From positions 62,001-126,000 of the forward strand of contig SBEH01000005.1 of the NCBI GenBank assembly GCA_009668945.1: a stretch of 64,000 bases of DNA, in the 5' to 3' direction. Within the stretch, counting starts at the first letter, position 1. Every line of letters starts with the position of its first letter. Made by a program: the position numbers and the translations under genes. Below, piece by piece: positions 32,424 to 32,589 of this stretch. Source of the DNA: Actinomycetota bacterium. GTDB taxonomy: Bacteria > Actinomycetota > Coriobacteriia > Anaerosomatales > Anaerosomataceae. A model generated the notes under the pieces. It was not told the origin of the DNA, ran no database searches, and saw only the letters and a program-made list of their open reading frames with translations.

Positions 32424-32457
32424 AAAGAAACGCCCTCTTGCGGCTGGCAAGAAGGCG
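32424..32457 (-). terminator. pyr attenuator terminator
   Basis: On the minus strand an 11-bp stem (32447-32457 with 32431-32441, one G-U pair) and 5-base loop CAGCC are followed by TTTCTTT. It is a good intrinsic terminator 44 bases ahead of the pyrR start. Confidence 0.85.
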
Positions 32458-32527
32458 GCTGCTTCGGCTTGCGCGCGTCGGTCCCAACGAGGAGGACGCG
32501 GCTCATCTATGCGGTTGGCTCCTTGCC
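32446..32527 (-). promoter_or_regulatory. pyr antiterminator pairing
   Basis: Leader bases GGCAAGGAG (32527-32519) can pair over nine positions with CTTCTTGCC (32454-32446), the ascending arm of the terminator, with one G-U. Forming this helix destroys the terminator and, at the other end, breaks the lower stem of the PyrR hairpin: the mutual exclusion that attenuation needs. Confidence 0.7.
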
Positions 32528-32552
32528 GGCCTCACAGGACCGGTGTTAAAGG
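32521..32552 (-). promoter_or_regulatory. PyrR-binding loop (anti-antiterminator)
   Basis: The RNA folds as CCUU (internal loop) CCGGUC-CUGUGA-GGCCGG (internal loop) AAGG. The segment UCCUGUGAGG fits the known PyrR recognition motif UCCnGnGAGG with a hexaloop CUGUGA closed by a U-G and a C-G pair. It starts at about the first bases of the transcript expected from the promoter at 32561-32589. Confidence 0.85.
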
Positions 32553-32560
32553 TCTCGCCG

Positions 32561-32589
32561 AGGGTATCAGGTGTGCGCGCATACGACAA
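32561..32589 (-). promoter_or_regulatory. Promoter of the pyr operon
   Basis: TTGTCG, exactly 17 bases, then TACCCT, on the minus strand. The start of transcription would fall near 32554, immediately ahead of the PyrR hairpin. It lies about 65 bases past the histidine kinase stop. Confidence 0.6.

Follow-up and report, generated by a model that had tools for sequence, protein, structure and literature searches.

A probable PyrR-dependent transcription attenuator in the pyr operon leader of an Anaerosomatales actinobacterium

The pyr locus and its leader

The window, a 64,000-nucleotide stretch of an Actinomycetota genome (contig SBEH01000005.1 of assembly GCA_009668945.1), carries a pyr operon on its minus strand, in which a leader is followed by the genes pyrR-pyrB-pyrC-carA-usp-carB-pyrK-pyrD-pyrF (Table 1); pyrD and pyrF, behind pyrK, were assigned by reading the open reading frames. 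The upstream neighbour is a two-component sensor kinase (histidine kinase) gene that ends at 32654. The product of pyrR, the presumed regulator, scored 253.5 bits against the NCBIfam PyrR model (cut-off 138) and matched the PDB PyrR of Bacillus caldolyticus with an E-value of 5.5e-66, and in these comparisons it was closest to the Bacillus attenuation proteins. The usp gene lies directly behind carA in nine loci of relatives as well (L092, L093, L095-L098, L101, L102 and L111), and a distantly related usp gene does so in L169.

Table 1. Genes and leader elements of the pyr locus in the window
Feature	Position	Strand	Details and basis
Promoter	32561-32589	-	TTGTCG 32589-32584, 17-nt spacer, extended -10 TGATACCCT (TG 32569-32568, hexamer 32566-32561); sequence
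PyrR binding loop (anti-antiterminator) CCTTTAACACCGGTCCTGTGAGGCCGGCAAGG	32521-32552	-	RF00515, loop-only model and sequence
Pairs of the PyrR loop	CCUU 32552-32549 with AAGG 32524-32521	-	CCGGUC with GGCCGG around the hexaloop; sequence
Hexaloop CUGUGA	32537-32532	-	Sequence
PyrR loop motif UCCUGUGAGG	within 32521-32552	-	Sequence
Antiterminator 5' strand GGCAAGGAG	32519-32527	-	Overlaps the 3' half of the PyrR loop
Hairpin capping the antiterminator	32471-32502	-	Stable, between the two antiterminator strands; predicted leader fold
Antiterminator 3' strand CTTCTTGCC	32446-32454	-	Overlaps the terminator 5' arm
Intrinsic terminator	32424-32457	-	Stem 32457-32431, 11 bp (7 G-C), -18.1 kcal/mol; U tract TTTCTTT 32430-32424
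pyrR, presumed regulator	31826-32380	-	GTG start 32380; SD GGGAGG 32395-32390, nine bases ahead
pyrB, aspartate carbamoyltransferase	30886-31821	-	NCBIfam
pyrC, dihydroorotase	29613-30953	-	NCBIfam; true start probably inside the ORF
carA, carbamoyl-phosphate synthase small subunit	28333-29730	-	NCBIfam; true start probably inside the ORF
usp, two-domain universal stress protein	27485-28336	-	Between carA and carB
carB, carbamoyl-phosphate synthase large subunit	24253-27471	-	NCBIfam
pyrK, dihydroorotate dehydrogenase electron transfer subunit	23441-24256	-	Top NCBIfam matches are PyrK families, scoring under the respective cut-offs

The initial annotation had described a promoter, a PyrR hairpin, an antiterminator and a U-tailed terminator in this leader, and all four were found in the sequence there, on the minus strand and in the right order; the Rfam PyrR model RF00515 matches from end to end. 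A PyrR loop with the UCCnGnGAGG motif, a CnGnGA hexaloop, a lower stem and a purine-rich 3' side is present at the 5' end of the mRNA, and the intrinsic terminator, the only one detected in a 2-kb scan (0.4 expected), precedes the first coding sequence of the operon. Its U tract is interrupted by one C, and 8 of 61 leaders from the order failed a strict U-tail test. The two strands GGCAAGGAG and CTTCTTGCC are complementary over nine pairs, one of them G-U, and their pairing is mutually exclusive with both the loop and the terminator.

The RF00515 match spans loop and terminator, ends at 32423 and reached 43.7 bits (E 6.8e-5 in 401 nt searched); in a search of the whole 1.92-Mb genome the leader was the single site (E 7.7e-5), and the loop-only model R1 gave 48.3 bits (E 3.5e-8 in the genome). 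The RF00515 score lies below the curated Rfam gathering cut-off of 54 bits, which is a curation threshold, not a functional feature, and which only 1 of 197 Coriobacteriia genomes passed; we infer that the shortfall probably arises because most of the sequences used to train the model are AT-rich. On their own, RF00515 matches with E-values as high as 10 were given no weight, because Escherichia coli and Methanocaldococcus controls also produce them.

Folding and covariation of the leader elements

Folding of the leader, which the initial annotation had proposed as a check, agreed with a switch. When the segment running from the loop's GAGG as far as the last base of the terminator 5' arm was folded, the antiterminator (counted if at least five of the seven GGCAAGG bases were paired to the terminator arm) appeared in the minimum-energy structure of 49 of 49 leaders from the order, compared with 70 of 980 shuffled downstream controls. 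In the predicted folds of the order leaders, a hairpin caps this antiterminator, and further pairs often lengthen it. The complete leader folded into a structure with the terminator but with neither loop nor antiterminator, as expected, because the terminator is the final state of such a switch. For the window, the predicted energy was -36.3 kcal/mol without constraint (antiterminator) and -35.6 kcal/mol with the loop enforced, a gap of 0.7 kcal/mol, and the two alternatives lay within about 1.5 kcal/mol of each other on average among the order leaders. Such nearly equal predicted energies could represent a balance that a protein could tip, which fits a switch set by a protein.

Comparison of 93 distinct Coriobacteriia leaders revealed that antiterminator pair 2 is G-C in 60, A-U in 31 and G-U in 1, and is thus paired in 92 of 93, whereas 72.0 were expected from shuffling and none of 2,000 shuffles reached the observed value. 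On a PyrR tree of 89 rows obtained with tblastn, each side of this pair changes three times, with three independent paired changes on the best tree and one independent change, of both sides together, on well-supported branches. The covariation therefore carries modest weight, because independent events are few and just one falls on well-supported branches. The remaining conserved antiterminator pairs hardly vary and are uninformative either way. Loss of covarying pairs in related genomes, which the initial annotation had named as an outcome that would speak against attenuation, was not seen.

The change is also visible between groups: Anaerosomatales combine the loop end GGCAAGG with the terminator arm CUUCUUGCC, Eggerthellaceae combine GACAAGG with CCUUUGUC, and in Slackia equolifaciens and a few further Eggerthellaceae GGCAAGG reappears together with GCC. 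Cognate pairing of loop and terminator arm was predicted at -15.3 kcal/mol, compared with -12.9 kcal/mol for non-cognate pairing. Loop, antiterminator and terminator keep their order, overlap and covariation throughout Anaerosomatales and also, although the sequences themselves change, throughout the class.

A plain sigma-70 consensus scan detected no promoter upstream of the PyrR loop. In 57 leaders from the order aligned on the loop, TTG is kept at -37 to -35, with 95% having T as the first base of the -35 element, and TG-N-TA---T is kept at -17 to -9. This conservation bears on the alternative that the terminator is a constitutive one serving the histidine-kinase gene, which ends just upstream of the leader, and that the PyrR loop is a decayed relic without a regulated switch. 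We consider this extremely unlikely: a conserved promoter separates the kinase gene from the terminator, the loop and antiterminator are kept in nearly the whole order, and the terminator arm changes along with the loop.

Probable regulation of the pyr operon by the leader

Transcription attenuation, the reading given in the initial annotation, is the best supported by the order, overlap and covariation of the elements across the order and the class, and we regard it as very likely that the leader (32589-32424) is a PyrR-dependent transcription attenuator of the pyr operon. The evidence obtained consists of the presence, order, overlap and conservation of the elements, one covarying antiterminator pair, the predicted folds and the cognate pyrR gene. 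For the events themselves, that is, the binding of PyrR, UMP as the signal and termination itself, we rely on analogy with the Bacillus system, the mechanism of which is summarised in PMC7430163. Transcription would start a few bases ahead of the PyrR loop. Without PyrR-UMP, GGCAAGGAG would pair with CTTCTTGCC, and the resulting antiterminator would block the terminator, allowing RNA polymerase to continue into pyrR and the other pyr genes. With abundant UMP, PyrR-UMP would hold the loop and leave the terminator 5' arm free, so that a 27-nt hairpin would form before the U tract and transcription would end about 45 nt ahead of pyrR.

Translational repression of the Mycobacterium smegmatis type was weighed against this reading. 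The AAGGAG of the loop would then act as the Shine-Dalgarno sequence (SD) of an ATG at 32506, from which an N-terminally extended PyrR of 226 aa would be made, and PyrR would block ribosomes. AAGGAG does lie 12 nt ahead of this ATG, the reading frame continues without a stop across the terminator and into pyrR, and a loop over an SD, with a spacing of 4-14 nt, does exist in other families of actinobacteria and at carA of Coriobacteriaceae. However, the ATG occurs in three members of the genus in reading frames that end differently, giving 226 aa in the window (pyrR in frame) but, out of frame, 50 aa at L039 and 118 aa at L049, and it is missing in L029 and in most of the order. Moreover, the extension would run through the terminator, and pyrR has its own GGGAGG-9-GTG start, which is followed by conserved residues and roughly coincides with the start of PyrR in near relatives. 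Translation from the ATG at 32506 was therefore rejected, as the reading frame is not conserved; in the window, the loop does not overlap the SD of the first gene, and we judge repression of this type very improbable.

A dual device, in which attenuation would predominate and PyrR together with the terminator would also limit translation of the first gene, takes its appeal from three leaders (L007, L008 and L104) with the configuration GCAAGGAGGCGTTTTT-ATG, in which the pyrR SD (AAGGAGG) lies in the terminator 3' arm and the ATG stands right behind the T tract. At these three loci, the hairpin could block transcription and translation both. In the window, by contrast, the pyrR SD lies 28 nt past the U tract and outside the hairpin, which makes a dual function highly unlikely here.

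PyrR sites across Actinomycetota and comparison with known systems

The leader was found in 62 of 69 Anaerosomatales genomes; the remaining seven, several of them incomplete, had no RF00515 match and no convincing loop with the loop-only model. Terminators behind a PyrR loop also occur in four further Coriobacteriia families (f17, f18, f19 and f20), and pyrR lies within 1.1 kb downstream in 89 of the 94 Coriobacteriia leaders examined. In a sample of the phylum, 36 of 396 genomes exceeded the RF00515 cut-off. An attenuator without the translational arrangement was seen in 33 families, mostly picked by high RF00515 scores, which reward terminators, and with a terminator-like site arising in about 10% of shuffled downstream sequences (36/374); 17 families, including Streptomyces- and Mycobacterium-like ones, showed the reverse. 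The initial annotation had contrasted attenuation at this locus with the translational repression of mycobacteria: the translational arrangement is indeed seen in Mycobacterium-like families, but attenuation is no isolated actinobacterial case, as it is found in many of the sampled families.

Two loci of other Coriobacteriia, L064 and L116, have a PyrR loop that directly adjoins the start codon of pyrR and lack a terminator, indicating that the translational type also exists in this class. Several Coriobacteriia have two PyrR sites, one before pyrR and one before carA (L076/L077, L086/L087, L089/L090 and L295/L310); in the genome with L295 and L310, the first site is attenuator-like and the second translational.

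Outside the window, a further arrangement was observed in Coriobacteriaceae, where the PyrR loop lies on the carA ribosome-binding site and the ATG follows 6-10 nt after AAGG; one such genus is Collinsella, with a pyrR 96-98% identical to that of C. aerofaciens. Of 30 distinct carA genes, 21 combine three features, namely a hairpin of -15.7 to -25.5 kcal/mol, a T6 run (RTT TTT TAY) and the rare glycine codon GGG, and the other nine have none of the three. Unusual synonymous codons thus make up the hairpin and its T6 run. The terminator-like hairpin and T6 run lie at about codons 16-47, beginning 47-106 nt past the start codon; the hairpin and T6 run were found at L073, L074, L083, L088, L278, L287, L296, L300-L302, L338 and L341, and the hairpin is absent from L273-L276, L293, L294, L297-L299, L310 and L333. 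In a set in which 14 of 24 genes bore the hairpin, synonymous shuffles of the motif segment matched it in 0-2 of 200 cases for 13 of these 14, the remaining sequence giving 14 of 200, and over the first 150 carA codons such a site arose by chance in 23 of 180. The hairpin arms differ among genera yet stay complementary. With a pattern blind to the hairpin, 54 of 65 genomes from the family, which are related to one another, had the motif, again with the same two codon-use classes.

A classical antiterminator pairing was considered for Collinsella carA and rejected, because it is weak, at -2 to -10 kcal/mol, and nearly absent from some genera; a translation-coupled reading is therefore preferred there. 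We propose, tentatively and with less than even confidence, that actinobacterial PyrR sites have repeatedly been rewired between a stop of transcription and a stop of translation, and that Coriobacteriaceae carA, with a loop over its ribosome-binding site and a terminator inside the gene, may be a hybrid in which PyrR would block translation and the untranslated RNA would then terminate. If so, it would link the transcriptional and translational PyrR modes. Transcription and translation have been reported to be uncoupled in Bacillus subtilis, and the proposal would fail if this were also the case in Coriobacteriaceae. Among the papers searched, none was found that deals with PyrR in Coriobacteriia or with a terminator within the carA gene.

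The window leader shares with the Bacillus pyr attenuators (RF00515) the UCCnGnGAGG loop with its hexaloop and purine-rich 3' side, pyrR as the first gene, an antiterminator overlapping both loop and terminator, and a terminator with a U tract. It differs in having one site where Bacillus has three, in an antiterminator that is GC-rich, longer and capped, in a weaker, interrupted U tract, and in a score below the Rfam cut-off. The Eggerthellaceae PyrR leaders (L072-L091 and L103-L122) belong to the same class and have the same architecture and overlap, but their loop ends in GACAAGG, their terminator arm is CCUUUGUC, and a second copy often stands before carA. PyrR-dependent translational repression was reportedly described by Fields and Switzer in 2007 for M. 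smegmatis, in which the loop covers the first ribosome-binding site, whereas in the window an antiterminator and a terminator follow the loop and pyrR starts 140 nt past it.

Cultivated members of the order (Anaerosoma and Parvivirga) probably carry the same leader, and a direct test is therefore possible. The kind of attenuator is already known; here it proves standard across one order of actinobacteria and common among deep-branching Actinomycetota. PyrR attenuation is thus no speciality of Bacillota, being the rule in this order and frequent in other actinobacteria, and the translational mode of mycobacteria and Streptomyces represents one variant within the phylum.
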